A DNA stretch of 55,234 bases from Desulfobacterales bacterium (GTDB lineage: Bacteria > Desulfobacterota > Desulfobacteria > Desulfobacterales > JAIPEE01): positions 1 through 55,234 of the forward strand of contig JAIPEE010000026.1 in the NCBI GenBank assembly GCA_021737275.1. Reading direction: 5' to 3'. The notes below the pieces were generated by a model. That model ran no database searches and had not been told where the DNA came from. It saw only the letters and a list, made by a program, of their open reading frames with translations. Numbering within the stretch: the stretch's first letter is position 1; every line of letters begins with the position of its first letter. This document shows, piece after piece, positions 3,700 to 38,600 of the stretch. The position numbers and the translations under genes were made by a program.

Positions 3700-4589
3700 A
3701 AAAGGGATTGAACCATTAAATCGGATCAAATTTTAGCATTTTATAAAGGTCATTGATAACATTGGGATTACTACGGTGGTTAAAACGAAATCCCATTTTT
3801 CTTATAAAGAGTTCAAAGTTTTTCTTATAACCGCCATGATATATTTTAAGTCGCCTTTTGATAAAGCCCCAAAAGTTTTCAATTTCGTTTATATGGGTTT
3901 TACCTTGGCCTAAGGTTTCATCATGTATTATTCGGACATGATGGAGCCCTTCGAGATCAAAGTTGTCATAGGCGCGAAAGCCATCTGAATAAACCCATGA
4001 TTGGGGTTTCATATGAGTTTTTATCGCACCCTGAAGTGAGGCTTTATCAACTTTATCAGGGAATACCACCCGGGCTTCACCATGTCGCTTCAGAAGCCCT
4101 AATACCGGTATTTTCCCACCGGCACCACGCCCTCTTTTACCTTTTTGGACACCGTCAAAGTATGATTCGTCCACTTCAATTTCACCGGCTAATTGTTTGA
4201 GTGATCGCCTGCTTTCTTCGGTAATTTTCAAGCACAACCGGTTAAAATAACGCTGAACTGTTTTACTGTTTAAGCCAAGGCCTTTAGCCACCTTGGCAGC
4301 CGGTACCATAAGCCAGAACAGTCTGACAATTTCTTTTTAAACTTTAACAGGCAAACGACTAATGGAGCGTTTATGAGTAAACTTTTTCCACATCGTTTAC
4401 ATTTTCTTCGGCCATCAGAAAGCTTGTATGAGTCACGAAAGTTACATTCAGGACAAAGGATATGACGTACCTTTTGGCATGTAACATTTTCAAGGGTACT
4501 ATTGTTACAAGCAGACTGTCTTATAAACTTTTTATTTTTAACCATCGAGCTCTTTTATCATGGCCTGATTTAAAGGTCTAATCCCGTTT
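3700..4589 (-). mobile_element. Decayed IS1595-like insertion sequence
   Basis: The element is bounded by imperfect inverted repeats. The left one (3700-3724) and the reverse complement of the right one (4564-4589) share AAA.GGGATT..ACC.TTAAATC and match at about 20 of 25 positions. Between them is a single transposase gene broken by a frameshift and a stop. I could not identify a target-site duplication, so the exact ends are uncertain, and the left repeat overlaps the end of the transposase frame. IS1595-family (ISXO2-like) elements typically encode one transposase with an N-terminal zinc ribbon, as here. Confidence 0.7.
3716..4545 (-). pseudogene. IS1595-family (ISXO2-like) transposase, frameshifted
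   Basis: The N-terminal part (from 4545) has a zinc ribbon CPEC...CKRCGKS. The C-terminal part (to 3716) has the DDE-type core: VDESYFDG, then YSDGFRAYD, then HINEIENFWGFIKRRL, ending in a conserved NHR motif (FRFNHRS). Two lesions separate them. A run of five A residues (plus-strand T run 4383-4387) appears to have lost one base, since adding one restores CGKKFTHKRSISRLP. Downstream in the restored frame is a TAA (complement of 4337-4339), between RLPVKV and KEIVRLFW. Removing both yields one continuous transposase. The gene is therefore inactive unless recoded twice, which is unlikely. Confidence 0.85.
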
Positions 4590-6423: not shown

Positions 6424-6939
6424 TTAACAATCAAGTAAGTGTGTCAAAAACCTGGATAGATTCTCAGCCACAAAATCAATTCCAATACGATTTGCAAGAG
6501 TTGAATCAGTCTGAAATATAGCACCGCCGGCAACAATCTTTGTGTTTTGTGGAATATTCAGGCGAATTTTTTCCAATGCAGGCTCTGATGATCGTTGAAG
6601 AACAGTAAGTCCAAGGAGGTCAGGTTTTTGAGATCGGCATGTTTCGATAATATTTTCAGGTGAAATACGTAGACCCAGATCATTTATCCTGAGCCCCACA
6701 ACATCGGCATAAAGATGGATAAGCTTCATGCCAAGGCCCCAACCATCGTCTAAGGTGGCTGTTACCATCAACGGAGGCTTTTCCCAGAGACTGTCGATAT
6801 GGTTTTCCTGTTTCCATTTAATTATATGTTTTGCCTCGACTTCCAGCTCGGGTCTGAAGGGTTCACCGGATGTCTGCCATTTGCCGACCAACTGTTTTAA
6901 GTAATGATGAAACTGGTTTGAGTGGCTGGAATTATTCAT
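6424..6939 (-). CDS. B12-binding-fold protein at the end of the menaquinone operon
   Basis: A 171-residue cytoplasmic protein. Residues about 55-165 look like a cobalamin-binding Rossmann domain: VTATLDDGWGLGMKLIHLYAD, then PDLLGLTVLQRSSEP, then TKIVAGGAIFQTD. In cobalamin proteins the first loop is DxHxxG and the histidine ligates cobalt. Here the loop reads DDGWGLG and the histidine is absent, so base-off/His-on B12 binding is not expected. The N-terminal 50 residues are probably helical. It starts 12 bases after the mqnB stop, so it is very likely cotranscribed with the futalosine genes. No known menaquinone enzyme has this fold. It could be a regulator, a scaffold, or a binder of another tetrapyrrole or quinone-like ligand; that is open. 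Confidence 0.7.
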   Translation of the reverse strand: MNNSSHSNQFHHYLKQLVGKWQTSGEPFRPELEVEAKHIIKWKQENHIDSLWEKPPLMVTATLDDGWGLGMKLIHLYADVVGLRINDLGLRISPENIIETCRSQKPDLLGLTVLQRSSEPALEKIRLNIPQNTKIVAGGAIFQTDSTLANRIGIDFVAENLSRFLTHLLDC

Positions 6940-6951
6940 TTTATTGAAAAT

Positions 6952-7593
6952 CTATTTTTTTTGATTAAGGCCGGCTTCAATAAGAGGCACTACGGAATCT
7001 TTAAAAAAAAGATAAAAACTACGGCGATATTTTTTAATATTTTCTATAATATGATTATCCATATCATGCCCGGGGACATCACTTACAAACTTAAACAGGT
7101 AGCAATTTGTTTTAAACTTTTTGCATACCTGTACGACGGCAGCGGCTTCCATATCAACAAGGTTTACAGCAGCAGAAATCTTTATTCGTTCCTCATCTTT
7201 CAATATCGCTTTGTCCTGTGTCGCAATGGTCGCTTTATTAAAACCGTTGATTATGTCTGGTCTTACTGAAGACGCATTACCGGTTTTTAATGATGGCCGA
7301 TCAAGTTCCACGACATTGTTAATATGGTAATTTTCACCGAGTGGATGCAACTTGTCAGCAGCACCGGCTGCACCGAGGTTAAAAATTACATCAGGTTTAT
7401 AATTCATGCAGCTAAAAGTTGTTGCCGTTGCTGCATTTATTTTACCAATGCCGGAAATCACCAGAACAAAATCTTTGTTTTCATAAACGGTAAAAGGTTT
7501 ATTGGCTGTTTTTTCAAGAGATAAACCCCTGATAAATGGATCAGCCTCAAAAACGGTAGCCATGACTATACCGGTTACAGAATGTTTCGGCAT
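6952..7593 (-). CDS. mqnB: Futalosine hydrolase
   Basis: A 213-residue nucleoside phosphorylase/hydrolase-fold protein (PF01048). It shows the purine-site pattern LVDMEAAAVVQVCKKF and FKFVSDVPG, and a central GIGKINAATATT and NLGAAGAAD. Within the futalosine cluster it should split futalosine into dehypoxanthine futalosine and hypoxanthine, the step between MqnE and MqnC. The ATG at 7593 lies 19 bases inside mqnD and is preceded by GAGGAG, which indicates tight coupling. Some organisms use an MTA/SAH nucleosidase for this step, but the length and position favour MqnB. If MqnB acts on futalosine, an aminofutalosine deaminase is needed elsewhere; none is in this window. Confidence 0.88.
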   Translation of the reverse strand: MPKHSVTGIVMATVFEADPFIRGLSLEKTANKPFTVYENKDFVLVISGIGKINAATATTFSCMNYKPDVIFNLGAAGAADKLHPLGENYHINNVVELDRPSLKTGNASSVRPDIINGFNKATIATQDKAILKDEERIKISAAVNLVDMEAAAVVQVCKKFKTNCYLFKFVSDVPGHDMDNHIIENIKKYRRSFYLFFKDSVVPLIEAGLNQKK

Positions 7594-8378
7594 TTTGCCA
7601 TCTCCTCAAGTTTATTTATAGCACTGTATCCCTGCTTTCCAAGAGAGACAGTAAAGTCATTTACATAGAGGTTAATGTGACCGTTGATAACATTATCATC
7701 CATCTCCTGGGCGAAAGATTTAACATATTTCCTTGAAGCGATCCTGTCCTTTTGTGCATAGAATATGGAGTTTTTTAAAATTTTTTCAATAATTTCCTTA
7801 TGGATAATTGTATTCGGATCTTTTCTGATGGCAATACACCCTAACGGAATAGGGCAGTTTGTCTCATTTTCCCACCACTCTCCCAGATCGACGATTTTGA
7901 TGCAGCCATATTCGGGATAAATAAAACGTCCTTCATGGATGATAAGGCCGGCATCATATTGACCGGACTGAATACCAGGAAGGATTTTATCAAATCGGGT
8001 TACGGAGACATTATTTATCTCGGGCTTCCATAGCTTCAGCAGGAGGTATGCGGTTGTGTTATCTCCTGGGATAGCAATTCGAGCCTTTGAAAAATCAAGA
8101 TCCTCATTTTTGGAAACAAGCATGGGGCCGCATCCGAATCCTAACGCTGCACCGGAGTCAAGAATCTCATAGTGATTTCTCAACCTCAGATAAGCAAAAA
8201 AAGAGAGCTTGGAAATGTGCAACTCCTTGCTGAACGCTTTTTGGTTTAATAACTCAACATCATGAATATGGGGCATAAACTGAAACCCCTTTGTATCAAT
8301 TAATCCATGAAGCATGGCATGAAAAATAAAGGTATCATTCGGACAGGATGAAAACCCCAGATTCAGCTTAGTCATCAT
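7575..8378 (-). CDS. mqnD: 1,4-dihydroxy-6-naphthoate synthase
   Basis: A 267-residue protein with the periplasmic-binding-protein-like fold of MqnD. It opens with LNLGFSSCPNDTFIFHAMLHG, the family's diagnostic start, followed by a DVELLN loop, GFGCGPMLVS and DAGLIIHEGRF. It converts the cyclic de-hypoxanthine futalosine made by MqnC into 1,4-dihydroxy-6-naphthoate, the aromatic core of menaquinone. It overlaps menG by 11 bases upstream and mqnB by 19 bases downstream. An AAGGA site precedes the paired ATGs at 8378. Length and motifs are normal for the family, so confidence is high. Confidence 0.95.
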   Translation of the reverse strand: MMTKLNLGFSSCPNDTFIFHAMLHGLIDTKGFQFMPHIHDVELLNQKAFSKELHISKLSFFAYLRLRNHYEILDSGAALGFGCGPMLVSKNEDLDFSKARIAIPGDNTTAYLLLKLWKPEINNVSVTRFDKILPGIQSGQYDAGLIIHEGRFIYPEYGCIKIVDLGEWWENETNCPIPLGCIAIRKDPNTIIHKEIIEKILKNSIFYAQKDRIASRKYVKSFAQEMDDNVINGHINLYVNDFTVSLGKQGYSAINKLEEMAKCRNIL

Positions 8379-9102
8379 GCGTTCCTTTACTACTGATTGT
8401 AATAGTAGCTACGCCAAAAGTCTGTTTATAATGCCGGGTATTAATGAAGTTGAATTTTTGAAGCAGTACCTGAAGCTCACACGGTTCTATGAATGTGGCA
8501 ATCGTTTTGGCTAAATATCGGTAAGCCATTTTCTCACCTGAAATAATTCCGCCAATGATCGGAAGCAAACCGTGCAGATAAAACTTGTAAAATATGCGAA
8601 CTATCGGATTTTCCGGACGGGTCAGCTCCAGTATAGCCAGTTTTCCACCCGGCTTCAATACACGGAAAACTTCTTTGAAAAAGTTATTCAGATCAGGGAT
8701 ATTACGGATACCGAATGCAATGGTTGCCGAATGAAAAGAATTGTCATTAAAAGGGATAACGCATGCATCCGCTACAACGGTATCACCTTTCAGCGCCTCT
8801 CTTTTTATCCCCTGTCGAATCATGTTTTCACTGAAATCAAGGGATGATACATTAGCATTATTTTGAGTTAACAGCAGAGAAAGATCACCGGTACCGCAGC
8901 AGAGATCCAGCACTCTTTTATTTTCTATGGGCGATATCAGCCGTATAGCTTTTTTACGCCATGATTGATCAATTCCAAAAGAGAGCAGGCGATTCAAAAG
9001 ATCATACGTTGGAACAATGACGTTGAACAGTTTTTGAATAAACTGTTTTCGTTCTTTGGGGTTCCGGTTATCCAGTTCATATGTGATGGCAACTTTTTTC
9101 AT
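8368..9102 (-). CDS. menG: Demethylmenaquinone methyltransferase (UbiE/MenG)
   Basis: A 244-residue class I SAM-dependent methyltransferase. Motif I is VLDLCCGTGDLSLLL; the UbiE-specific TIAFGIRNIPDLNNFFKEV and FRVLKPGGKLAILELTRP follow. It performs C-methylation of the naphthoquinone ring, the last step of menaquinone synthesis. The start codon overlaps the mqnC stop in an ATGA, and GGAG lies 6 bases before it. Since the surrounding pathway makes menaquinone and no other ubiquinone genes are seen, menG is the apt name, although the protein is of the UbiE family. Confidence 0.93.
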   Translation of the reverse strand: MKKVAITYELDNRNPKERKQFIQKLFNVIVPTYDLLNRLLSFGIDQSWRKKAIRLISPIENKRVLDLCCGTGDLSLLLTQNNANVSSLDFSENMIRQGIKREALKGDTVVADACVIPFNDNSFHSATIAFGIRNIPDLNNFFKEVFRVLKPGGKLAILELTRPENPIVRIFYKFYLHGLLPIIGGIISGEKMAYRYLAKTIATFIEPCELQVLLQKFNFINTRHYKQTFGVATITISSKGTHDD

Positions 9103-10166
9103 TTAAAACTCCGGATAACCTTGTATTCTGAATCCCGCTGAACCGGATCTTTGCCGGCATTTTTTATGATATCCACCAGTTCATCAATGTTGGTTCGCGT
9201 ATTAATGCCGGTGGCCTTAACAACCACCTCTTCAGTCAACACACCGCCCATATCATTGGCACCGAATGAAAGTGCAATCTGGGCAAGTTTCAGACCTTCG
9301 GTGAGCCATCCGGCCTGAATATAAGGTATGTTATCCAGAAATATTCGTGAGATGGCAACAATCTTCAGATACGTCATACCCGTGGCCGGTACAATATCTT
9401 CCATGAGGGTGTTGGCCGGGGAAAAGGACCAGGGAATAAAGGCACGCAGGTTTTTTGTTTCATCCTGAATATCCCGAATAACGGTTAAATGGTCAATCCG
9501 CTCTTCGTTTGTTTCACCCATTCCGTATGTCATCGTCGCTGATGATTTCATGCCATGTGCGGCAAGGGTGCGAATGACTTCACACCATTCATCTCTGGTG
9601 ATTTTACGGGGACTGACCTGCTTACGAATACGGTCTACAAGGAGATCGGATGCACCGGGCATGGAATCCAGACCGGCCGATTTCAGGGCTACGATAACTT
9701 CATCAATCGTAATACCGCTTTTTCGGGCCATATGAACGGCTTCAGCAGGAGAAAATGAGTGCAGATAGACAAAAGGGAAACGATCCTTTACCGATTTTAC
9801 AAGCGTCAGATAATTGCCGGCTGTGTAATCCGGATGAAGCCCACCCTGCAGCATTACCTGGGACCCACCGGCTTCGATAAGCGCTTCGACCTTCTGGAAT
9901 ATTTCATCCATCGAAAGATTATATTCCTCTATCCGGTTGGCTTTCGCATGAAATGCACAGAACTTACAGGCTGCTTCACAGACATTGGTAAAGTTGATAA
10001 TGCGATCAATGATGAAGCCCACCTGGCTGCTTTTCAGTGAATTCTTTCTTCTGAGATCAGCCGCTTTCCCAAGCTCAAGGATATCCCAATCAAAAAGCTC
10101 AAGGGCTTCCCGGGGACTTATTCTTTTACCGGCGTATATTTTTTTTATGAGTTTTTTGTTTTCCAT
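9099..10166 (-). CDS. mqnC: Cyclic dehypoxanthine futalosine synthase (radical SAM)
   Basis: A 355-residue radical SAM enzyme. The [4Fe-4S] cluster motif CEAACKFC (CxxxCxxC) is near residue 65. The following MLQGGLHPDY and YLHSFSPAE are typical of MqnC. The C-terminal half carries SFGANDMGGVLTEE, shared with MqnE and cofactor F420 synthase-type enzymes. It cyclises dehypoxanthine futalosine. The gene starts 7 bases after the mqnA stop with only a weak ribosome site, and its end overlaps menG by 4 bases. Confidence 0.95.
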   Translation of the reverse strand: MENKKLIKKIYAGKRISPREALELFDWDILELGKAADLRRKNSLKSSQVGFIIDRIINFTNVCEAACKFCAFHAKANRIEEYNLSMDEIFQKVEALIEAGGSQVMLQGGLHPDYTAGNYLTLVKSVKDRFPFVYLHSFSPAEAVHMARKSGITIDEVIVALKSAGLDSMPGASDLLVDRIRKQVSPRKITRDEWCEVIRTLAAHGMKSSATMTYGMGETNEERIDHLTVIRDIQDETKNLRAFIPWSFSPANTLMEDIVPATGMTYLKIVAISRIFLDNIPYIQAGWLTEGLKLAQIALSFGANDMGGVLTEEVVVKATGINTRTNIDELVDIIKNAGKDPVQRDSEYKVIRSFK

Positions 10167-10173
10167 AACAAAA

Positions 10174-10983
10174 TCATACTTTATAAAAATCCAGTTTTGA
10201 AATCTTTTTTAAAAATCCCAGCTCATTTCCCATTTCGTGATAAAAGGAGAGCGCTTTTTTCAAGTCATCCGAAAATGAGTAGTGAAGACGTGAAAAATAT
10301 TTGTCCAGATCATAGATGATATCCGGATATTTTTCACCGGCACAAGAAATGACTTTCTCCCGCTCGCTTTTCATGCTTTCCAGGGATAATCTGAATGATC
10401 GTCTGATATCTTCAATTTCTTTTGAATATTTGTCTGCCACACGTTTTTGTACTGTAAAAACGGCAAATACAACCGGGAATCCGGTTTTCCTGAGCCAGAG
10501 ATCACCCAGATCATAAGTATATGGTGCCGGTTCATCCATTTTAACCATGGCATGATTGCCGATTACAAGGCAGGCATCCACACCGTTCAGATCCGGTTTT
10601 GGCCCGGCGGCCAAGTAAACCGGATCAACATTATAATATTTTTTCAGAATTATTTTTAAAAGTGTAACGGTTGTATGGGATGCACTTGAAAGGCCGATCT
10701 TTTTTTTATCCAGTGCTTCTATCGGCTCTTTACTGAACAACATAACAGAACCGACATACCCGACCGAACTCAGGCAAAAGTCCGGCAAAACATAAACATC
10801 CGGTGCCATATCAGCACAGGATGCAGAGGAGACAGGACTCATATCCAGCTCTCCGGCAGACATTTTCCGGTTGAGCCGCCCGGGTAAGCCCGGCACAATA
10901 TTGATGCCGTTCACCGGCTGTTTTTCAAACATGTGATAATAATACGGATAGCAGTTCAGATAGTTGATATATCCCAGTTTCAT
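10174..10983 (-). CDS. mqnA: Chorismate dehydratase
   Basis: A 269-residue protein of the MqnA/MqnD periplasmic-binding-like superfamily. It opens with KLGYINYLNCYPYYYHM, the MqnA signature, and continues with LDMSPVSSASCAD and the SSASHTTVTLLK loop that binds the substrate. It removes water from chorismate to give 3-[(1-carboxyvinyl)oxy]benzoate, the first committed step of the futalosine route. It overlaps mqnE by 4 bases (ATGA), with GGAG 7 bases before the start. The length is normal. Confidence 0.93.
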   Translation of the reverse strand: MKLGYINYLNCYPYYYHMFEKQPVNGINIVPGLPGRLNRKMSAGELDMSPVSSASCADMAPDVYVLPDFCLSSVGYVGSVMLFSKEPIEALDKKKIGLSSASHTTVTLLKIILKKYYNVDPVYLAAGPKPDLNGVDACLVIGNHAMVKMDEPAPYTYDLGDLWLRKTGFPVVFAVFTVQKRVADKYSKEIEDIRRSFRLSLESMKSEREKVISCAGEKYPDIIYDLDKYFSRLHYSFSDDLKKALSFYHEMGNELGFLKKISKLDFYKV

Positions 10984-12089
10984 GATTTTTCTCCGGTACC
11001 AAGCCGGTTGTAACTTGCCGTGGTTCGTTGCGGCTTGAAACCGGCATCACTGATAAGCCTTTTCAGATAAGCTTCAGATCCATAGTCAGGTGTTTTAGCG
11101 CCGGCGGCATGTACCACCTTTTCATTATAGTAGGTTGCACCGATGTCATCAACACCGAATCGAAGCAGTATCTGGGCCATCTTTTCCCCGAGATACATCC
11201 AGAGTGCCTTTAAATGAGGCATATTATGCAGAAAAATACGACCGGTTGCATAAATCCTGATATCCTCAAATCCGGTTGTCTGAGCACGTCTTGCCTTGAT
11301 CTGTGTGTTGGCATCATGAAAAGGCAGGGGCACAAAGGTTTTAAAACCGCCGGTTTCATCTTGGAGTTCCCTGAGTTTAGCGAGATGATCCACAATATCT
11401 TCCACCCGTTCATTGTGATTATAGAGCATGGTAGCATTTGTTTTAAGACCCTTGTTATGGGCAATCCGCATAATCTCAAGCCATCGCTTCCCGGGGATCT
11501 TGTCCGGTGCAATAATGGTGCGGATATGGGGTGCAAAAATTTCGGCACCGCCGCCGGGAAGCGCACCGACACCGGCATCAATGAGCCGGTCAAAAACCTC
11601 TTCTACAGAGATATTATTGACCCGTGCGAAATAGTCATATTCCACTGCAGTGAAGGCGACAATGAACATATCGGGTTTGATTCGTTTGATAATCCTGAGC
11701 ATCTCTTCAAAGTAATCCAGCTTGAGATCCGGACGGATACCACCCACGATATGCACTTCATCAATGCCTGTTGAAACTGCATCCGTTACCCGTTTTTCGA
11801 TTTCTTCATGGGATAACAGGAATGCCTGAGGGTCGTCTTTGTCACACGAATAGGCACAAAGAGGGCAGCGGAGCTCACAAATATTGGTGTAGTTGAGATT
11901 CATATTTACACCATAGAAAGCAATATCGCCATGAAGTTCAGACCGGATATGGTGTGCTATAGTACCAAGATCCAATATGTCACTGGTTGTGAGCATATAT
12001 CGGGCATCAGATTCGTTGATCGGTGTATTGCCCATTACTTTTTCGGCGATTTGCCTGAGCGTTTTATTTTGAATACTTTCTAATATCAT
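10980..12089 (-). CDS. mqnE: Aminofutalosine synthase (radical SAM)
   Basis: A 369-residue radical SAM enzyme with the cluster motif CELRCPLC near residue 75, followed by HIVGGIRPDLKLDYFEEML and a GGGAEIF motif typical of MqnE. It joins the MqnA product to SAM to form aminodeoxyfutalosine. It is paralogous to MqnC in the same operon, and both end in a DD(I/M)G motif (GVDDIGATYYNEKV here). The start codon overlaps the ubiX-like stop by 4 bases, so translation is probably coupled; the upstream ribosome site is weak. Confidence 0.95.
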   Translation of the reverse strand: MILESIQNKTLRQIAEKVMGNTPINESDARYMLTTSDILDLGTIAHHIRSELHGDIAFYGVNMNLNYTNICELRCPLCAYSCDKDDPQAFLLSHEEIEKRVTDAVSTGIDEVHIVGGIRPDLKLDYFEEMLRIIKRIKPDMFIVAFTAVEYDYFARVNNISVEEVFDRLIDAGVGALPGGGAEIFAPHIRTIIAPDKIPGKRWLEIMRIAHNKGLKTNATMLYNHNERVEDIVDHLAKLRELQDETGGFKTFVPLPFHDANTQIKARRAQTTGFEDIRIYATGRIFLHNMPHLKALWMYLGEKMAQILLRFGVDDIGATYYNEKVVHAAGAKTPDYGSEAYLKRLISDAGFKPQRTTASYNRLGTGEKS

Positions 12090-12700
12090 TGTATCAAATC
12101 TTTGCTTAATTCTTCCCAGCTTTTGAATAGATTATGATTGATATCCAGCAGGTTTAAAATTTTTCCAACAATAAAGTCCACTGTATCCTCAATTGTTTTG
12201 GGTCGGGTATAAAAGCCGGGCACCGGCATGACGATATCTGCACCGGCCCGTGCAACTTTTTGTAAATTTTCAATATGGATAATGCTCATGGGCGTTTCCC
12301 TCGGGACAATGATCAGCCGGTGTTTTTCTTTTATGGCCACATCTGCTGAACGTGTAATCAGGGTATCTGCGTATCCGTGTGAAATGGCTGCCAGGGTTTT
12401 CATGGAGCAGGGAACAACCACTGTTGCCTCGATTCGGGTACTGCCGCTGGCTGCCGGAGAAAAAAAATTCCGGTTATCATATTCTTCAAAAAGGGCGGTT
12501 TCTTTTGCAATGCCGCGTTTTTCGATTATGTTCCTGAGAGAGTCGGTGTGTCCCTCAAGATCAGGGATTTCGTACTCGATGATCTTTTTTGCAGGGTCTG
12601 AAACAACAGCAGATACGGATTTACCGGCATTGAGGAGTTCTTCTATAAGCCGGATGCCTAAAATAGGGCCGCTTGCACCGGAAATGGCAACGACAATCAT
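12086..12700 (-). CDS. ubiX: UbiX-family flavin prenyltransferase
   Basis: A 204-residue flavoprotein of the UbiX/Pad1 type. The FMN-binding start is VVAISGASGPILGIRLIEEL. The middle has the VVPCSMKTLAAISHGYADTLITR stretch, and the C-terminus has the conserved RETPMSIIHIENL and PVPGFYTRP segments. It makes prenylated FMN, the cofactor of the UbiD-type decarboxylase encoded at 13579-15027. A strong AGGAGG lies before the ATG at 12700. In futalosine organisms the UbiX/UbiD/UbiA-like trio handles the late steps of menaquinone synthesis, which fits this operon. Confidence 0.93.
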   Translation of the reverse strand: MIVVAISGASGPILGIRLIEELLNAGKSVSAVVSDPAKKIIEYEIPDLEGHTDSLRNIIEKRGIAKETALFEEYDNRNFFSPAASGSTRIEATVVVPCSMKTLAAISHGYADTLITRSADVAIKEKHRLIIVPRETPMSIIHIENLQKVARAGADIVMPVPGFYTRPKTIEDTVDFIVGKILNLLDINHNLFKSWEELSKDLIQ

Positions 12701-12746
12701 GATCGCCTCCTGTTAAAATATATTTTTCGACAGTTCATAGATTCAC

Positions 12747-13589
12747 TCATCTTGCCAGTAAATCAATCAGCGCACCGGCAAAAAGAAGCGGTGAAATCAG
12801 CATATTGGCTTTAAAAAATTTTTTGACCGCAACAGGTGTGTCATTCTGCCTTGCCAGTATTTGCTGGTAAGTGAAAATCAGTAAAATGCCAATGATGGAT
12901 ATCCAGTATGGCTTGCCCATGTCGACCAGCAAGCCCGCAATAATAAGTGCAGCCAGACATGACATATAGCAGATGGTTGATATCTTGATAGCTTTTTTAC
13001 GGCCATATTTAACGGGAATGGAGTGAAGCTTTTCCTTTTTGTCAAAATCCATATCCTGCAGCGAATAAACAATATCAAGGCCTGCAATCCAGGTTAAGAT
13101 CACTATGCCGAGAATAAAGGGCACGATTGTAAAATGACCGGTTGCGGCAAGATACCCGCCCATGGGGGCTGCAGCCTCAACCGCACCCAGATAAAAATGG
13201 ACAGAGGAACTGAACCTTTTGAAAAACGAATAGGAAAAAAGTAAAAATATGGCCGGAAAAGATAAATAGTAACAAAGTGTATTCAGCATGTATGATGAAA
13301 ATACCAGCAGAAGACATGACAGAATTGCAAGCAGCCAGACAATGTAAGGCTTTACTTCTCCTTTGGGAATCTGGCGGTCTTGTGTTCGGGGATTTTTGGC
13401 ATCAATACGTGCATCAATGACCCGGTTAAAGGACATTCCTGCTGTTCGTGCAGCAAAAAGGGCAAGTGTTGCCCAAATCCATGTCGTAAAGGTGCCGCCG
13501 CCGGCAAAAAGGATGCCGATATATGCAAAGGGCAGAGCAAAAAGCGTCTGCTCAATCATGATCAGTTTTGAAAATGTCTTAAAATCCAT
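12747..13589 (-). CDS. UbiA-family prenyltransferase (menaquinone late step)
   Basis: A polytopic membrane protein of about 280 residues with roughly eight or nine hydrophobic segments. The two aspartate-rich motifs that bind prenyl diphosphate through Mg2+ are present: NRVIDARIDAKNPRT near residue 65 and DIVYSLQDMDFDKKEK near residue 180. In this context it should attach the polyprenyl tail to the dihydroxynaphthoate core (the MqnP role) rather than act in ubiquinone synthesis. I chose the ATG at 13589 (MDFKTFSKLIM), 11 bases inside the ubiD-like stop; a longer frame from 13613 has eight extra residues without family support. A 46-base gap separates it from ubiX. Confidence 0.88.
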   Translation of the reverse strand: MDFKTFSKLIMIEQTLFALPFAYIGILFAGGGTFTTWIWATLALFAARTAGMSFNRVIDARIDAKNPRTQDRQIPKGEVKPYIVWLLAILSCLLLVFSSYMLNTLCYYLSFPAIFLLFSYSFFKRFSSSVHFYLGAVEAAAPMGGYLAATGHFTIVPFILGIVILTWIAGLDIVYSLQDMDFDKKEKLHSIPVKYGRKKAIKISTICYMSCLAALIIAGLLVDMGKPYWISIIGILLIFTYQQILARQNDTPVAVKKFFKANMLISPLLFAGALIDLLAR

Positions 13590-15027
13590 ATGATTTCCAG
13601 CGTTTTGTAACACGATCTTTTATCTCATCCGACATGGTGATTTCATTCGGCCAGTCGCGGCCCATGCCCTCTTCACGTGTTTTTCGGGTGGCATCTATCC
13701 CCATTTTCCCACCAAAATTAGCAAATGGTGCAGAATGGTCAAGTGCATCCAGAGGACCCTCGGACATCAGCAGATCCCGCCTGGGATCTACATTATTCAA
13801 CAGTTTCCATACTACTGTGCTGTAATCCCTGAGATCAATATCTTTATCAAAAACAGCAACAAATTTTGTGGAGGCCATCTGGCCCAACCCCCAGAGGGCA
13901 TTGATAACTTTTTTGGCCTCTCCGGGATATTTTTTGTCAATCGAAACCAGCGCACAGTTATGGAAAACACCCTCAAGAGGCAGTTCCATATCTACAATTT
14001 CCGGTACGACCATTTTGAGCATCGGCAGAAAAATGCGTTCGGTAGCCTTGGCCATGTAACAGTCTTCCATGGGCGGTTTGCCCACAATAGTTGTTGGATA
14101 AACAGCATTTTTCCTACAGGTAATGCATGTTACATGAAAGACGGGATAAATATCCGCAGGCGAATAAAACCCGGTATGATCGCCAAACGGCCCTTCTATC
14201 CTTTCTTCTGACGGATCTACATAACCTTCTAAAATAAAATCGGCTTCAGCCGGCACAAACAGATCAACCGTTTTTGCCTTAACAATTTCAACCGGTTTTG
14301 AAGAGATAAATGCAGCCAGTATGAGTTCATCAATATCCGGCGGCAGGGGCGCTGTGGCGGCATAGGTTACCTCCGGTGGCCCACCTATGGCCACCGCAAC
14401 ATCCATCCGTTTATTATTAAGGTTTTTGTATTTATCAAAATGACGTGTACCGTCTTTGTTATACTGCCAGTGCATACCGGTAGTTTTATTGTCATATTTG
14501 TGCATCCGGTACATACCCATATTCTGCATGCCGTGTTCAGGATCTTTTGTGATTACAAGGGGTAAGGTAATAAAGGGTCCCCCGTCTTCGGGCCAGCATG
14601 TTAAGATGGGAAGCGCATCAAGCATCGGGCCGGCAGCATCAAACGTTCTTTCCTGGCATGGTGCATTTTTCACCTTTTTGGGAATCAGATGGGCCATCTC
14701 CTTAAGGGTAAAAAGCAGTTTGATTTTTTCAATGAAACTCTGCGGCGGTTTCATCTTGAGCTGGGCCATCAGTTTGTCGGCAATTTCATCAAACCTGTTA
14801 CAGTATAATGCCGACGCCATCCGTTTATAACTGCCATAGGCATTTATCAGGATAGGGAACTCTGAATCCTTTACATTTTCACAAAAAAGAGCCGGACCGT
14901 TATTCTTACTGATGCGATCGGCAATTTCCGTTATCTCAAGATAGGGGTCAACTTCTGCAGGGATTCGGTGCAGTTCATTCATTGATTCAAGCTTTTCGAT
15001 AAACTGCCGTGTATTTTTATATGCCAT
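13579..15027 (-). CDS. UbiD-family decarboxylase (menaquinone late step)
   Basis: A 482-residue prenyl-FMN-dependent decarboxylase of the UbiD family. Visible landmarks are the N-terminal RQFIEKLESMNELHRI, GMYRMHKYDNKTTGMHWQ (cofactor-binding region), and EGPFGDHTGFYSPADIYPV, which carries the metal- and proton-donor acidic residues. It is the first gene of the operon and probably decarboxylates the prenylated 6-naphthoate, the MqnL-type role, with its cofactor supplied by the UbiX-like gene two places downstream. AAGGT precedes the ATG at 15027. The promoter should lie just upstream, before 15120. Confidence 0.9.
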   Translation of the reverse strand: MAYKNTRQFIEKLESMNELHRIPAEVDPYLEITEIADRISKNNGPALFCENVKDSEFPILINAYGSYKRMASALYCNRFDEIADKLMAQLKMKPPQSFIEKIKLLFTLKEMAHLIPKKVKNAPCQERTFDAAGPMLDALPILTCWPEDGGPFITLPLVITKDPEHGMQNMGMYRMHKYDNKTTGMHWQYNKDGTRHFDKYKNLNNKRMDVAVAIGGPPEVTYAATAPLPPDIDELILAAFISSKPVEIVKAKTVDLFVPAEADFILEGYVDPSEERIEGPFGDHTGFYSPADIYPVFHVTCITCRKNAVYPTTIVGKPPMEDCYMAKATERIFLPMLKMVVPEIVDMELPLEGVFHNCALVSIDKKYPGEAKKVINALWGLGQMASTKFVAVFDKDIDLRDYSTVVWKLLNNVDPRRDLLMSEGPLDALDHSAPFANFGGKMGIDATRKTREEGMGRDWPNEITMSDEIKDRVTKRWKSYGF

Positions 15028-30340: not shown

Positions 30341-32665
30341 ATGAAAAATAATAAGGTATTTTCCATATTTCTTATGGTTACCAGTATGCTTTTAATAACT
30401 ATTGAAGCCCATTCTGCAGATCTTGAAATCAGCGGTGAGACAGCTACAGGTAATTATTATTCTGCAGAAAGCATATATACAGATGAGGAAGCAGGTTGCT
30501 GGGTTAACTCCGGAAGCGATGTGCAGTTTGTAGCAAATGATACCATCATATTAAAATCGGGTTTTTACGCACATGCCGGTAGTAGTTTTAAAACATTAAT
30601 ACGTGAGGTTGATCCACTTGATATGGACGCAAATACCTTGCCGGATGCATGGGAGTTACAATATTTTGGACATCTTGAAAATGATCCGGACTTTGACTCT
30701 GATGGTGACGGATTCACCAATTTCCAGGAATATGAAATGGGTTCTGCGCCAAATAATTCTGCCTCGGTTCCTGCTCCCATTGTTACCTTTAATGCTGATC
30801 CACAAATTACAGACGGTCTGACATCTGCCACACTGGCATGGACTACACTTTATGCTGATTCAATTTCTATTGAGCCTGGCCCCGGCGATGTTACAGGCCA
30901 AAATACCACTGATGTTTTCCCCGAATCAACAACAGAATATATATTAACGGCAACAGGCAACGGTGGGATCACCACTGCCACATTTACAGTCATTGTTGAT
31001 AGTGAATCGCCACAAATCATATCTTCATATCCCACGGAAAACGGCACATTCAATGCTGAAAACTTACAAATGGGATTAGTTGCAACATTTGTTGATAATA
31101 CCGGTATTTCATCCGTAACATTATTTAAAATAGATGGGCAGCAAGAAACAGATGTAACCGCCCTGGCAGTGATAGGTGATAACGCCATAAACTTTGATAT
31201 ATCAAATCTTGAAGACGGTATTTACAATTTTAAATTGGTTATTATTGATGATTTAGGAAATCAGTTAATCCACTATTTTACATTCACAATAGACAAGACA
31301 TTTCCAGTCACATCTCCCAGCATAGCAGCAGGCGCTTACAAAGAACCGTTTTCTTTAGACCTGGTTTGCTCAGAACCTGCGACCATTTTTTATTCCACAG
31401 ACGGTTCTCCACCATTTGAGGGCGGCGCAAATACCATTTCCGGAACATCTCCTATTCCGGGCATCAATATCAACCGCATTATGTGCCTGCAGTTTTATGC
31501 AAAAGATGCGGCCGGGAATATTGAACCGGTAAAACGTGCTATGTATCTCGCTGTAATCCCGGATGCCGTCACAGGGGTTACAGGTCAATACAATAATCCC
31601 AATGTAGACATTACCTGGGCGCCATTTAATGGGGCTGACAAATACCGTGTATACAGAGCATTGAGCGCTATAGATCATAACCTCCTTGTTCAAAGTGGTA
31701 AAGATGGATACGCACCACCAGGAAGGCTTCTATATTGTCCAACAGATCTACCGGCTAGTACTACTTCCTTTGTTGATACCAATGTAATGCCCGGCGTAAC
31801 CTATTATTATGGCGTCACTCAGGTGGACAGTAATGGGACAGAAGGGGTAATCGGACAATTGGTGTCGGTGCCAGTCCCGGAAACTGGGACGGCTTTAAAT
31901 AAAGAAGAAGCGATTACCAGAGCGCTTGCCTGGCTTGAATCAAAACAGGACAAAACCGGTTTTTGGGGAGAAACCCCGGGAACCAGGATTTTGGCAACAA
32001 GTCAGGTTCTGAATGCTTACAAATTGGCAGAAATATACGATTATAATACCTCCTGTGCCTTATTCTATTTGAGAGGACACCGGGCTGACAACAACGATTA
32101 TCTGGCACGTAAAATTCGGACACTGAGCACATTTAACCAGAATGCTGATATGCTTATAAGTAAACTTGTATCCCAGGCTTCTTTCGTCGGGATATACCTC
32201 CAGGGGTGGGCTCTGAATACTCATTATGCTTATGATCCTCTGGATACAGTTCTGGGTAAAAAAGCCATCGATTGTCACAGTTCAGACACAATTTCAAATT
32301 ATGCAGCCTATAAATTAAAAAATAATGAAAATCTTCAAAGCTCAATCCCCGACCGATTTGCCTGGATAATAGGATCAGACCCAAGCATTTATGTATCGAG
32401 CCTGGTTTATCAGGTTGTTGATGACGCTTATCCAGCTGATGCCCCTGTTTTTAATTCATCCTGGATAACCGGTTCCCAGGCGCCGGATGGGTCTTTTGGC
32501 AATCGATTGGTTGATACCAGTGCAGTCCTTATATGGTTAAACTATTTGGATGAGTCTCAAAAGCAAAATGCCATCACTTATCTGATTTCGCAACAAAAAC
32601 CCAACGGAAGCTGGGGCAATGATCCGTATCTTACAGGGCTTTGTCTGGAGGCACTGTTAAAATGA
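30341..32665 (+). CDS. Large secreted multidomain protein (calcium-repeat, FN3-like, TED-like C-terminus)
   Basis: A 774-residue protein with a signal peptide (FLMVTSMLLITIEAHSA). Residues about 28-88 hold a beta-rich motif with ILKSGFYAHAGSSF, seen in many Bacteroidetes surface proteins. Residues about 90-145 carry a calcium-loop repeat, DMDANTLPDAWELQYFG, followed by DFDSDGDGFTNFQEYEMGS. Ig-like and chitobiase-like domains follow (FYSTDGSPPFEGG), then an FN3-like domain (WAPFNGADKYRVYR). The C-terminal 220 residues start WLESKQDKTGFWGE and end AITYLISQQKPNGSWGNDPY, the tandem alpha-barrel pattern of squalene-cyclase or thioester-domain folds. No thioester CGEQ motif is visible. Its stop overlaps the first possible start of the RHS gene by 4 bases (ATGA). 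Confidence 0.75.
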   Translation: MKNNKVFSIFLMVTSMLLITIEAHSADLEISGETATGNYYSAESIYTDEEAGCWVNSGSDVQFVANDTIILKSGFYAHAGSSFKTLIREVDPLDMDANTLPDAWELQYFGHLENDPDFDSDGDGFTNFQEYEMGSAPNNSASVPAPIVTFNADPQITDGLTSATLAWTTLYADSISIEPGPGDVTGQNTTDVFPESTTEYILTATGNGGITTATFTVIVDSESPQIISSYPTENGTFNAENLQMGLVATFVDNTGISSVTLFKIDGQQETDVTALAVIGDNAINFDISNLEDGIYNFKLVIIDDLGNQLIHYFTFTIDKTFPVTSPSIAAGAYKEPFSLDLVCSEPATIFYSTDGSPPFEGGANTISGTSPIPGININRIMCLQFYAKDAAGNIEPVKRAMYLAVIPDAVTGVTGQYNNPNVDITWAPFNGADKYRVYRALSAIDHNLLVQSGKDGYAPPGRLLYCPTDLPASTTSFVDTNVMPGVTYYYGVTQVDSNGTEGVIGQLVSVPVPETGTALNKEEAITRALAWLESKQDKTGFWGETPGTRILATSQVLNAYKLAEIYDYNTSCALFYLRGHRADNNDYLARKIRTLSTFNQNADMLISKLVSQASFVGIYLQGWALNTHYAYDPLDTVLGKKAIDCHSSDTISNYAAYKLKNNENLQSSIPDRFAWIIGSDPSIYVSSLVYQVVDDAYPADAPVFNSSWITGSQAPDGSFGNRLVDTSAVLIWLNYLDESQKQNAITYLISQQKPNGSWGNDPYLTGLCLEALLK

Positions 32666-35600
32666 AGATAAAAAATCAAGCAAACAAAAGCGAATTGAAT
32701 ATATCCAAAAGGAACAGAGAAATGAATATTTCAAAACAACTTCACAAGCTTCCTTTAACACTGATCATGCTTGCTATTTTTGCCCTGCTTACAGCGACTT
32801 CTTTTGCAGATGATGAGCCAACATCCGATCATCTTAAAAAAACCATGGATTGCGACTGGGCGATTACTAATCCGGACGAGACAAATCCAGACAACTATAT
32901 TAATGATGGAAATGACGATCTGGTAAAGCTTGCTGAAAGCCTGGGTAATGATCCTGTTAAAATATATAACTGGGTTTACAAAAATATTTATTTTCCTCAG
33001 TTTCTTTATGATAAAGGAGGGCATAGGTGTTATTATTATGAAGATTCCCGTCTGGGAGCTATGGGTGCCTATTTAAATAAAATCGGGAACCATTGGGACC
33101 AATCATCTCTTCTTATTGCATTGCTTAGAATTTCAAAAATTCCCGCTCGTTATGTCAAAATACACAATGGCAATATTGTATACGTAGAAGCCTGGATGGA
33201 TTTGGATAATTACTGTAGTATCTTAGGCGGAAGTCAAAAAGGGTGGGTGCCCTTAGTTCCCTGGTTAAAAGAAATTGATTTAGTTGAGGGCTTTGATCTG
33301 TTCAAGGATGTCGCTGACTTTGAAAGTGATCCTCCCCCGCCTGGTTTGGATTTCGATTTTACGGGCTATCTGTCATCGATAAAATACCAGTCTGTATTAG
33401 AGCTTTATGAAAATAAGATTCAGGAATATCTCAATGTTAATTATCATGGAAAATCTTTGAAAGATATTCCTTTCAAAGAAGTTTTAATTGACAAAACAAC
33501 ATCTCTACTGCCTCGATCACTTCCTAAAAAACTTATTTCCGGAGACAGAACACGATACTTTGAAGTTCCTGAAGAAAATCGGGACAATATTCACCTGTAT
33601 ATTAAAAAAACCGACGGTACATCATTGCTGGATTACATCTTGTTTATGCCTCAGATTGCAGGGAAAAAATTCTGTCTGGATTGGACATATTCGGGGACTC
33701 AACTCACCCCGGTTTTCAAAATCGATAGCCGGATCACTTGTACCGGTTCCCAATCCATAACTGCTGAAGAATCGATAACGCTTTCTTATAAGATTAAAGA
33801 TCATTCCCAAACAGTAAATCGACCGGAACGGGTGGCCGGTACCTATATCCATATGGGATTTGACCCATTGAGTGCCTCTATAAAAACCATAGAGAAAGCA
33901 AAACAGAATCTGCAAACTATTGATGCCGGCCTTGTTCTGGACCCTACTACCCACGAAGAGTATTTTGGTTTAATGGGTCAGGTTTTGGTAGAAACTTTTT
34001 TAAACAGGCTCTATGAAAATTCTAAAAAAGCAGCCGGATATTTTTATGGAACACAGTGTTGGGGCCTCTGTCCTGTATTTATCTATTCAAAACCTCATTC
34101 AGAAGAGAATCCCGTTCTAACGGATGCAGAATCTAAATTTTATTACCATCCGCAGTGGAATATCGATGCCCAAGTCAAAGGTAACCTCAAAAGATTAGAC
34201 AGTGTAGATAATGCCATTATCTCTCCACCTGGGGACGCCCCCATCAACCAAACCTGTAGCCGGCTCATTGGATATGGTGCTTCATATGATGAAGGCAGAA
34301 TTTTTGAGGACTGGATGGATACACCTGGGGCAAGCACCATCAAAGGGTTGATGGTTGCCAATGAGGATTTGGATGGTACAGGCAATCGAAGTATAGAGCT
34401 GGTTGAATCTGATATTGATGAGACACCAACTGCTTTAACGTGCAATTTTAATGATTTAACACAGATCGAGAAAGTTGAAAATAAACTTTTTTGGATTGAT
34501 CCATATAAAGCCTTTGACGGGTTTCATATTGATGGCCTTAGAGTGGCAGATGGTTTTAAAGCCGACGGCTATTCATATGATACTAATGCTGTTGCCGGTG
34601 ACTATGCAATATTGGTTACAGGTACAACAACTATCGAAAGGGGTACTAAATTTGATCTAAATTCAGTCGATGTAAGTGCCCTTTTTAATGATACTGCTGG
34701 CGTAACAATCAAATTCCAGGGCTATAAAGGGTCAAGTAGAACGCCTGCGTTTACTGTATATAAATATGCAAAAACTAAATCTCGAGCAACTAAGAATTTT
34801 AATAATACTAATGCTATTACGGATATTAACAAGCTGGTCATAACCCTGGTCACTACCAATAAAGGGCCAGTGATTTTAGATAATATGGCATATACCCGCA
34901 AAGAATATATCGCAGATATTGAAAACGAAACTGAATTGCATTTAGGGTATGAATCGGTATTGTCACTCATTGATCAATTGCGAGATGGCAGCCGGGTGAT
35001 TACTCCTATTCAGCAGGTAAGATATGCAGAATTGTCCGGCGATATTAGAATTGTCCACAGTCCGGTCAGCGATTTGTACTCTTTTGGTATGGATAATGGC
35101 GGTTCCGCATCAACATTCACCTTGGACGATTATTCATCAACCTATCTGGACGCCTATAATTTCGATACATATATCTATGGCACGCCGGCATATACCAGTA
35201 TTCTGGATGATTATTCAACCACGGTCAACAACATAGAGACAGCCACCTATATAACCCTTCCCAATACGGCTAATGCTCTGGAACATTATGCAGGCGATCC
35301 GGTTGATATGGTTAAAGGCGAGTTTTATACAGAAGAAGAACCGGACTTCAAGATTAAGTCAAGAGGTTTTGATCTGTCAGTTTATAGAAAGTACAAGAGC
35401 AGGCTGATATACAATGGACCTTTTGGTTTTGGATGGACATGGAACCATGCCGAACGGATTATACCCCTGGAAAGCGACGATGTCATCTACCATAATAACG
35501 ACGGTGTCTCTTTTGAAATTACTTATGAGGATGATGTATGCGTCTATCCCAAAGGCAGCCGGTTTGTATTAGAAAAACTGGTCGATGGATACAGTATTAC

Positions 35601-38600
35601 ACAAAATCAAAGCAGAATTAAATCCTTCTTTTCTATCGATGGATACCTGGTCAAAAAAGAAGATCCATTTGGAAATACCCTGGAATATGAATATACCCAT
35701 CCGGAATTTGCCAATCGAATAACAAAAATTAAAGATGCGTTGGGAAGAAGCCTGACTTTAGATTACAATGCCAATGGAAAAGTTGAAAAAATAACTGATT
35801 TTACAGGCAGATATTGTACATACGGATATGGACCGGAAAATGATCCGGATAACCCGGACAGAAAAGACAACCTGATTGCCTTTACGGATCTGGAAAGTAA
35901 TCTTACACAGTATGAATACCTTTATGGTCAGGAGAATGAATTCAACAACCATAATATGAGAAAGTACATTCTCCCCAATGGAGACTGGCTTGAAATCGGG
36001 TATTACAGAAACGACCAGGCGGCCTATCATACCAACAAAAAAGGCGAAACCTTTAATTTTATGTACAGCCGCCTGAATCGGTATGCGGAAACCTGGAACG
36101 AAGAAGGCTATTATCGTAAAATCTTTTTCAACGAAAGCAGTGATGTTGTCAGGTATGCCAATGAAGACGGTACTATTGAGCAGATGGAATATGATGATCA
36201 CCACAATAAAATATCCCATACAGACGGCAATGGTAACACAACCGTATTTCAATACTATCCGGATGGCACACCCGAAAGCGAGCAGGATGGATTTGCCGCC
36301 AAACGCAAACTCTATGTCAAAACGAATGCCATGGGCCAATCCCGGCACTACAAGTATGAATCTGTCAACCACCCGTTTGCTCCATCCGAAATCATAGATC
36401 CCAACGGGAATATCACCCGATTTGCCTATAACTTAGATTCAAGCCTTAATCAAAAAATTCAGGCACCAGGATATGAATATAATGAAGAAGGTGTCCTGGT
36501 TAACAATGGTAGTGATGGTCTTATTACCGTCTACACTTATGATGACTACGGTAATGTTTTAACCATCACCTCTCCGGATGAAAGCTTTATAGTAAATACC
36601 TATGATGAAAACGACCTGTATCTGGAATCCGTCCAGGACAAAAATGGAATGGTCACCGAATATAACTACTATAAAACCTGCGGGGCTGACAGGGCGGACT
36701 GGAAGCCCATTAGCAGTATGAAATCAAAAGAAGTGGTGCTTCCCGACGAAACAACGCTTAAGACAAGTTATGAATATAACCTCTACGGACAGGTTGCCAA
36801 AGAGATCAATCCATTACTGCAGACGACAGAATTTAACTATGATGTTAACCGAAAATTGACTAAAAAGATCGAAGCAAATGGAGCGGAAACCATCTTCGAA
36901 TATGATACGGCAAGAGATGTTGTATCAGGGGCAAAGCTCATTCAAATGACAGATCCTGAAGGCCATATTGAAACCTATCAATATGACAAGACGGGTAATC
37001 TCATTGAAAAAACAGATAAAAACGGTAATATTACTATATACGCGTACGATCAGATGAACCGGCCTATCTGTGAAATAGACCCCTTGTATCAGTCTAAATG
37101 GCTGACCTATGACGGGGCAGGAAATGTTGTTGAAAAGGTGGATCCAAACGGAAATGTCACCACCTTTCAATACGACGCTGCCAACCGGCTGGTAAAAATG
37201 ATTACGCCCGAAGGTGAGGAAAACGGATTCTACAGCACCATAGCGTATGACAGCAACGGCAATAAAATCATTGAAACCGATGCCGAAGGTATAAAGACTC
37301 AATACATTTACAATGAATTGAATCAAATAACGTCTAAAACCATCGGATATCTGTCATCACAACCCAGAACTTTCGAATACCGTTATAATGCTGCCGGTCA
37401 GATCATAAAAGAGACTCAATCACCGGGCAATTTTACTGCCTATGAATATGACGGTAACGGAAATCTTATCGATCAGAAAACATATGACAAAGACGGTATT
37501 ACCCTGCTTCGTCATACCATCATTGAATATTACGATGATGCGAGAAACCTTATCAAAAGCAAAACCATTAAAGATGGGTTTGAAACTGACGGTACGTCCA
37601 GAGATATAATCGAGCAGTATGAGTATGATGCGCTGGGTCGTAAAATGTCTGTCACAGATTCCAACGGCTATAAAACAAAATATGAATATGATTCTGTGGG
37701 TAACCTGGTTCTGGTCATAGACCCTTCAGGAGCCCTTACCCAATATGGTTATGATAAAAACAAGCGGTTGATTTCTACCACCAATGCCATTGGTGACACA
37801 ACAATTACCGGCTATGACGCTGTAGGTAATGTAACTATGACTCGCGATGCACTGGGTAATGAAACATTATCCTTTTATGATGCGGCAAACCGTAAAATAA
37901 GTGTTGAGGACGCCCTGGGCAATATCAACATTATTGATTATGATGCCAACGGCAACGTCATCGCTCAAACCGATCCCAAAGGCAATGTCACCCGGCTGGA
38001 ATATGATATGGACAACCGGCTGGTCAGGGAAACAGATGCCCTTGGCAATGAAACAAAGATGACCTACGACCATACTGGACGGATCATACTAAAAGAATCA
38101 GCCAAACATGTGTTCACACAAATGCTTTATGATGACCCGTCAGGGCAGGTTACAAAAACAACACAGGCAATGGGTACAATGGATGAAAGCATTACTCAGT
38201 TCCAGTATGATGATAACGGCAAGCTGGCACAAGAAACCGATGCCATGGGTATTCCTACCTCCTATATCTATGACGGTCTTGGTCGTGTGGTTTCTAAACG
38301 AATCGGTCTTGACTCAGATGACAATTCCATTCTCCCTGCCGGGTCAAGTGAGCCTGTTAGGGAATATTTTTCTTATTATCCTACAGGACGGATCAAAACC
38401 CATACCGACCCTAAAAACCTTGTCACAAGATTTGAGTATGACGGTGTCGGCAACAAAACCAAAGAGACAGGCCCCCTACTCAATATCACGCGATACGAGT
38501 ATGACGATAATAATAACCTGATATCTGTTCTTTACCCGGAAGGGGTTATCCATTCATATGAATATGATCTTCTTAACCGGGTAACCATGAAATATGAGCA

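Follow-up and report, generated by a model that had tools for sequence, protein, structure and literature searches.

The window analysed here, a 55,234-nucleotide stretch of Desulfobacterales DNA, encodes on its minus strand (6424-6939) a protein of 171 amino acids that has the fold of B12-binding proteins and lacks the histidine that ligates cobalt in them. As judged by sequence, the ligand is the only element of the B12 signature to have been lost, and the remainder is kept. The protein belongs to a separate family of stand-alone corrinoid-type proteins that is centred on Desulfobacterota and apparently undescribed. We give roughly even chances to the proposal that in this family a large hydrophobic residue (Trp, Leu, Ile, Met or Phe) took the place of the cobalt-ligating histidine early on and that the remaining cobamide pocket has been under strong selection. 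The fold and the superfamily are already known, and so is the His-off state, within enzymes; what appears to be new, with respect to the open-licence literature, is a stand-alone family in which the histidine is substituted at the MetH-type position. No description of a His-less corrinoid-fold family was found in that literature, and the accessible portion of PMC7857596, a source on corrinoid partners in sulfate reducers, contains nothing on it.

The open reading frame starts with an ATG and is coded from position 6939 down to 6427 on the minus strand, with the stop codon at 6426-6424. The only Pfam match of the protein is the B12-binding domain PF02310, which covers residues 65-157 with 41.2 bits (E 1.7e-10), and the chain has no radical SAM domain. 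Since this score lies above the curated gathering cut-off of 32.1 bits, the assignment of the fold is not due to chance. The cobalt-ligand loop, DDGWGLG, consists of residues 64-70 (6730-6750, minus strand). In alignments with solved cobalamin proteins, Trp67 (codon 6739-6741) falls on the cobalt-ligating histidine, and Asp65 and Gly70 fall on the Asp and the Gly of the DxHxxG motif. The references were 1y80, 4jgi and methionine synthase for the single-sequence alignment, and 4r3u, 4jgi, 1y80 and methionine synthase for the profile alignment. A first-pass annotation of this DNA had proposed a B12-binding fold without the cobalt-ligating histidine, and both parts of that proposal hold, the fold by the PF02310 score and a corrinoid-like predicted model, the missing ligand by the alignment of DGWGLG on DxHxxG.

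The AlphaFold2 model, made from 35 sequences, has a pLDDT of 95.0 and a pTM of 0.89. It can be described as two predicted N-terminal helices, residues 3-24 and 29-45, followed by a five-stranded Rossmann-type cobalamin fold. The best match among solved structures is CobDH (4jgi), with a Z of 17.8 and an rmsd of 2.5 over 163 residues (VIA-align on the Foldseek top chains). The next matches, with Z of 14-17, are a MerR-family B12 domain, MttC, 1y80 and mutase subunits; taken together, the top rows after CobDH comprise corrinoid proteins and B12 mutases as well as B12 photoreceptors and photocobilins. According to the accessible text on CobDH, residues 1-82 form an N-terminal four-helix bundle, His102 sits on the cobalt, Asp100 is bonded to His102, and Ser147 makes a hydrogen bond with the lower base (PMC3727330). 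Asp100 and Ser147 correspond to Asp65 and Thr112 of the window protein, in which His102 has no counterpart. The four-helix bundle is replaced in the AlphaFold2 model by the two N-terminal helices (residues 3-45; 6805-6933, minus strand).

The methyltransferase corrinoid proteins (CobDH 4jgi, MtaC, MtbC, MttC and Moorella 1y80) are structurally the closest relatives, through 4jgi, and they share with the window protein the N-terminal helices, the five-stranded Rossmann domain and the signature composed of the Asp, the SxL-type stretch and the GG. They are also its best NCBIfam matches, far below all cut-offs (TIGR02370, 21.9 vs 215.3 bits). However, they have the cobalt-ligating histidine and a four-helix bundle, and the His-less family is a clade separate from them; in a quick tree of 26 family members and 14 ordinary corrinoid proteins, a branch with 100% SH-aLRT support sets the family apart from the others. 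About 59 residues precede the motif Asp in the His-less family, against roughly 100 in most of the ordinary proteins examined. The small subunit of 2-hydroxyisobutyryl-CoA mutase, 4r3u, is the best PDB profile match (E 1.8e-6). The AdoCbl mutase B12 domains (4r3u, glutamate mutase S) are likewise stand-alone small proteins and share with the window protein a DG-x loop (DGHDRG vs DGWGLG), but the window protein is devoid of the histidine and has extra N-terminal helices. B12 photoreceptor domains (CarH-like, photocobilins, AerR) have a related fold and a helical part, with 8jbt and 8j2x ranking high, and they use a histidine; the window protein has neither a DNA-binding nor a bilin domain.

When the genome of the window and 57 others from its order (58 in all) were searched, 16 matches, window included, reached E of about 1e-25 or better; a second tier, at E of about 1e-8 to 1e-3, consists of ordinary corrinoid proteins. 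A profile built from the 16 matches detected the His-less family in 89 of the 389 class genomes, in 46 of 148 genera, and in 15 of 395 phylum genomes, of which nine fall outside the window's order. A scan of one genome per species over 84,980 species matched 48 stretches, of which 44 loci were confirmed; it used a single peptide pattern, which members without the pattern or in other phyla may escape. All 44 are titled Desulfobacteraceae, Desulfobacterales, Deltaproteobacteria or kin, and the carriers include Desulfonema magnum, Desulfosudis oleivorans and Desulfoferrobacter suflitae. These 44 loci and 53 from further genomes make up the 97 relative loci discussed below, each of up to about 20 kb; in 64 of the 97, the gene is flanked on either side by over 5 kb, and part of the loci represent the same genome region present in two collections. 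Decayed-looking copies were found as fragments in genomes G182 and G233 and also in loci L086, L087 and L089, so the gene is dispensable there. Loci L022 and L030 hold another divergent type of corrinoid protein, with an EDDYHxLG ligand motif in which the histidine is kept and with SAM replacing SAL.

Residue counts were taken from an alignment of 75 rows, consisting of the window protein and 74 of the 79 distinct proteins from the 97 loci; five locus proteins, shorter than 155 residues or containing X, were left out, and just 67 of the 79 could be identified by a text pattern. Ten positions are invariant in all 75 rows: Asp65, Gly68, Gly70, Gly82, Gly89, Cys101, Gly110, Thr112, Gly138 and Gly139. 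Position 67, the site of the histidine, is occupied by Trp (29), Leu (19), Ile (13), Met (8) or Phe (6), and never by His or by a polar or small residue. A quick tree computed with this column left out requires at least 21 changes at the position. The tryptophan had been called conserved-looking in the first-pass annotation, but it is present in 29 of the 75 proteins, and the property that is kept is that of a large and hydrophobic residue. The segment TVLQRSS (residues 112-118; 6586-6606, minus strand) aligns as the SxL-type stretch that faces the lower base. Thr112 is found in 75 of 75 proteins, Leu114 in 74 and Ser or Thr at position 118 in 72, the motif being TVL or TIL with Thr in place of Ser; in the profile alignment, Ser/Thr118 is superposed on the second Ser that methionine synthase has in this stretch. 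Gly138-Gly139 (6523-6528, minus strand) corresponds to the GG of the B12-binding domain, in the loop of the nucleotide tail. The mean entropy of the eight signature columns, His site included, is 0.41 bits vs 1.70 bits for random sets from the same domain, and none of 20,000 draws was as low; these columns were preselected as B12 signature, Gly-rich columns tend to invariance, and the GG, the Asp and the Gly also serve the fold, the contrast fitting cofactor retention or structural constraint alike. As a control, DxHxxG, SxL or SxM, and GG were kept in 14 of 14 ordinary corrinoid proteins from the same search.

Sites of this kind have been described in cobalamin radical SAM enzymes. TokK, TsrM, OxsB and Mmp10 bind cobalamin in the base-off/His-off state, with a non-ligand, often hydrophobic residue under the cobalt (PMC13331322, PMC8828468); Trp76 of TokK (PMC13331322) and Leu322 of Mmp10 (PMC8828468) are found there and cannot ligate. 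The TokK residue is located in a different loop, after strand 3; Trp67 of the window protein occupies the position of the MetH histidine, in the loop that follows strand 1. The cobalamin domains of these four proteins are parts of radical SAM enzymes, unlike the window protein, and the known cobalamin sites without a lower ligand belong to enzymes (radical SAM enzymes, QueG and CFeSP), as far as the accessible text of PMC13331322 goes. The earlier guess that another residue replaces the histidine through a different binding mode finds solved precedents in TokK and Mmp10.

The occurrence of Trp, Leu, Ile, Met or Phe at the His position, together with a kept tail slot, is as expected of a base-off/His-off site, and on this ground we somewhat favour putative cobamide binding over its absence. 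The cobamide would be bound base-off/His-off, and the hydrophobic residue would sit beneath the cobalt, an arrangement known from TokK and Mmp10. Four-coordinate cob(II)amide or cob(I)amide would be favoured there over the usual MetH-type chemistry. The role of the protein may then be to hold, hand over or sense the cofactor, and it would be neither a methyltransferase carrier nor a menaquinone step; we regard a holding or hand-over role as doubtful when taken by itself. Our reading of the family, offered tentatively, is that of a stand-alone putative cobamide protein that keeps cobalt four-coordinate and stores, reduces, hands over or reports the cobamide supply, that is to say a corrinoid carrier that has neither an axial ligand nor an enzyme domain, in sulfate-reducing and related bacteria. 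The fold, the conservation of the signature, the restriction of position 67 to hydrophobic residues, the control with ordinary corrinoid proteins, the separate clade, the alignment of Thr112 with Ser147 of CobDH and the TokK and Mmp10 precedents speak for cobamide binding. Counted against it are that a hydrophobic residue 67 could equally fill an empty pocket, that neighbours differ by clade with no recurring partner enzyme, and that decayed copies exist.

The main alternative to the cobamide reading is that the family no longer binds the cofactor but has retained the fold. The B12 fold would serve as a scaffold or a protein-interaction module, and residue 67 would plug the vacant corrin site. 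This is a possible account, and several observations agree with it: the histidine is absent from 75 of 75 proteins, the N-terminus is shortened to two helices in the predicted model, no corrinoid partner gene recurs alongside, and the distribution is patchy (89 of 389 class genomes) with decayed copies. However, the slot formed by Thr112-x-Leu114, Ser/Thr118 and Gly138-Gly139 is conserved as strongly as any part of the protein, and an abandoned pocket would have no need of it. Furthermore, residue 67 changes often, yet among large hydrophobic residues only.

Cobamide might also be bound through another protein ligand, either His/Gln69 or another residue such as Cys101 (6637-6639, minus strand), which is invariant, lies outside the known B12 signature, and for which a parallel exists in the Cys ligand proposed for HgcA (PMC13331322). 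Position 69 is His in 40 and Gln in 25 of the 75 proteins. We consider this alternative improbable: position 69 is Leu in the window protein and Met, Phe, Val, Tyr, Glu or Asn elsewhere, a shift by two residues does not restore the DxH spacing, and Cys101 is located in the helix after the second strand, far from the ligand loop in sequence. An apparent coupling of Trp67 with His69 and of Ile/Leu67 with Gln69 may reflect shared ancestry, there being three independent pairs on supported branches.

The neighbouring genes of the 97 loci show no partner enzyme that recurs across the family. Two recurrent settings, each clade-bound, can be distinguished. In nine genomes outside the order and in Desulfoferrobacter (L066), the corrinoid-fold gene is preceded by a run of resB, a ccsA-type gene, a tatA-like gene, tatC and rdgB, where resB and the ccsA-type gene belong to cytochrome c assembly; tatA was identified by eye and the other genes by Pfam on representatives. 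The run was seen in L066 (2181-7470), L120, L121 and L123-L128, its genes not all being detected in each locus. The rdgB (Ham1) gene is at most 300 bp upstream in the loci of 8 of the 79 distinct proteins and within 1.5 kb in 9, and a NifU-like gene follows on the opposite strand in 6 loci of this setting. In the second setting, an EamA-type transporter gene is directly downstream, in the loci of 15 of the 79 distinct proteins; genomes of family f29 contribute at least seven of these. Loci with this neighbour include L036, L063, L072, L076 and L139, and two further EamA-type genes occur in L074, L076 and L079. The remaining loci have no common usable neighbour, and no mutase large-subunit gene was noticed among the recurrent neighbour clusters of the 97 loci.

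Three of the four f107 loci, which lie outside the window's class, have a radical SAM/SPASM gene 25-88 bp downstream of the corrinoid-fold gene on the same strand. These genes, L121:7544-8488 (plus), L122:5786-6727 (minus) and L126:7498-8445 (plus), encode proteins of 313-315 amino acids with mutual identities of 70-87%; their best NCBIfam matches, far below the cut-offs, are the tungsten cofactor oxidoreductase maturase and spiro-SPASM. This adjacency, together with the arrangement of TokK, in which a Trp lies under the cobalt (PMC13331322), would suit a split TokK-like enzyme in which the protein acts in trans as cobalamin subunit for a radical SAM enzyme. Nevertheless, relatives of the f107 SPASM protein are confined, within the window's class, to 12 of 389 genomes, not one of which is among the 89 family-positive ones, and no radical SAM-motif gene directly adjoins the corrinoid-fold gene in the loci other than these three. 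A split enzyme is thus very unlikely, and a radical SAM enzyme as a general partner was rejected by the genome-wide search.

In the window, the gene stands at the end of a minus-strand operon in the order ubiD, ubiA, ubiX-like flavoprotein gene, mqnE, mqnA, mqnC, ubiE, mqnD, mqnB and corrinoid-fold gene. The mqnB-like futalosine hydrolase is encoded at 6952-7593 (TIGR03664, 45.3 bits, below the cut-off of 124.7), and the eight genes from mqnD to ubiD, assigned by Pfam/NCBIfam, at 7575-15027; the names mqnC, mqnE and mqnB are from best match and context, with scores below the NCBIfam equivalog cut-offs. The position given in the first-pass annotation, 12 bp after mqnB (stop at 6952) and last in a complete futalosine operon, is confirmed by the ORF coordinates and the Pfam/NCBIfam assignments. 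By eye, a Shine-Dalgarno-like sequence is seen before mqnB and some other operon genes, and none within 20 bases before the start codon of the corrinoid-fold gene. Promoter and terminator scans differed little from shuffles (24 vs 17.3, sd 4.0, and 5 vs 5.6, respectively), so joint transcription of the corrinoid-fold gene and the operon is putative. No cobamide riboswitch was matched by Rfam in the window at gathering scores. Elsewhere in the window, a 2853-aa RHS-repeat protein, which has a transglutaminase-like domain close to the N-terminus, is encoded at 32641-41202 (plus strand), preceded by a 774-aa ORF without Pfam match, and two overlapping ORFs at 3716-4545 (minus strand) resemble, by eye, a frameshifted insertion-sequence transposase.

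The adjacency to the mqn genes is real, yet it is peculiar to the window genome among the sampled genomes. Searched by tblastn with the window mqn proteins (E 1e-6), none of the 97 relative loci has an mqnA-E homologue near the corrinoid-fold gene, and the sole operon-related match is a methyltransferase of the ubiE type, located about 9 kb from it in L060. Genes of the mqnE type are present in 227 of 389 genomes of the class; they are somewhat commoner in family-positive genomes (64 of 89 vs 163 of 300 negative ones; odds ratio 2.15, Fisher p 0.003, uncorrected for kinship). No mqnE match was found in 25 of the 89 positive genomes, some of which are incomplete, although G058, G061 and G067 among them are each listed as 100% complete. 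In the five genomes with both genes printed on one contig, the distance in linear coordinates between the corrinoid-fold gene and the best mqnE-type gene is 0.63 Mb (G009), 1.8 Mb (G048), 1.3 Mb (G077), 0.83 Mb (G197) and 5.6 Mb (G218). The first-pass annotation had proposed a role in menaquinone synthesis, to be refuted if the gene occurred without mqn genes in most genomes, and for gene linkage this is what was found in all 97 loci; its interpretation as a whole is partly supported. A protein of the futalosine menaquinone pathway, be it a scaffold, a regulator or an extra enzyme, is suggested by the last place in the window operon and by the uncorrected association with mqnE, and is exceedingly improbable given the loci and genomes without linkage or without mqnE, the megabase-scale distances and the start codon devoid of a Shine-Dalgarno-like sequence. 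The menaquinone link is rejected as a general feature of the family.

For annotation, the family carries a warning, as its genes have a B12-binding Pfam match and can adjoin unrelated pathways. If the cobamide reading is true, the family would provide a small, single-domain, soluble model of how proteins tune cobalt coordination, and it might mark an unrecognised cobamide-handling step in sulfate reducers.
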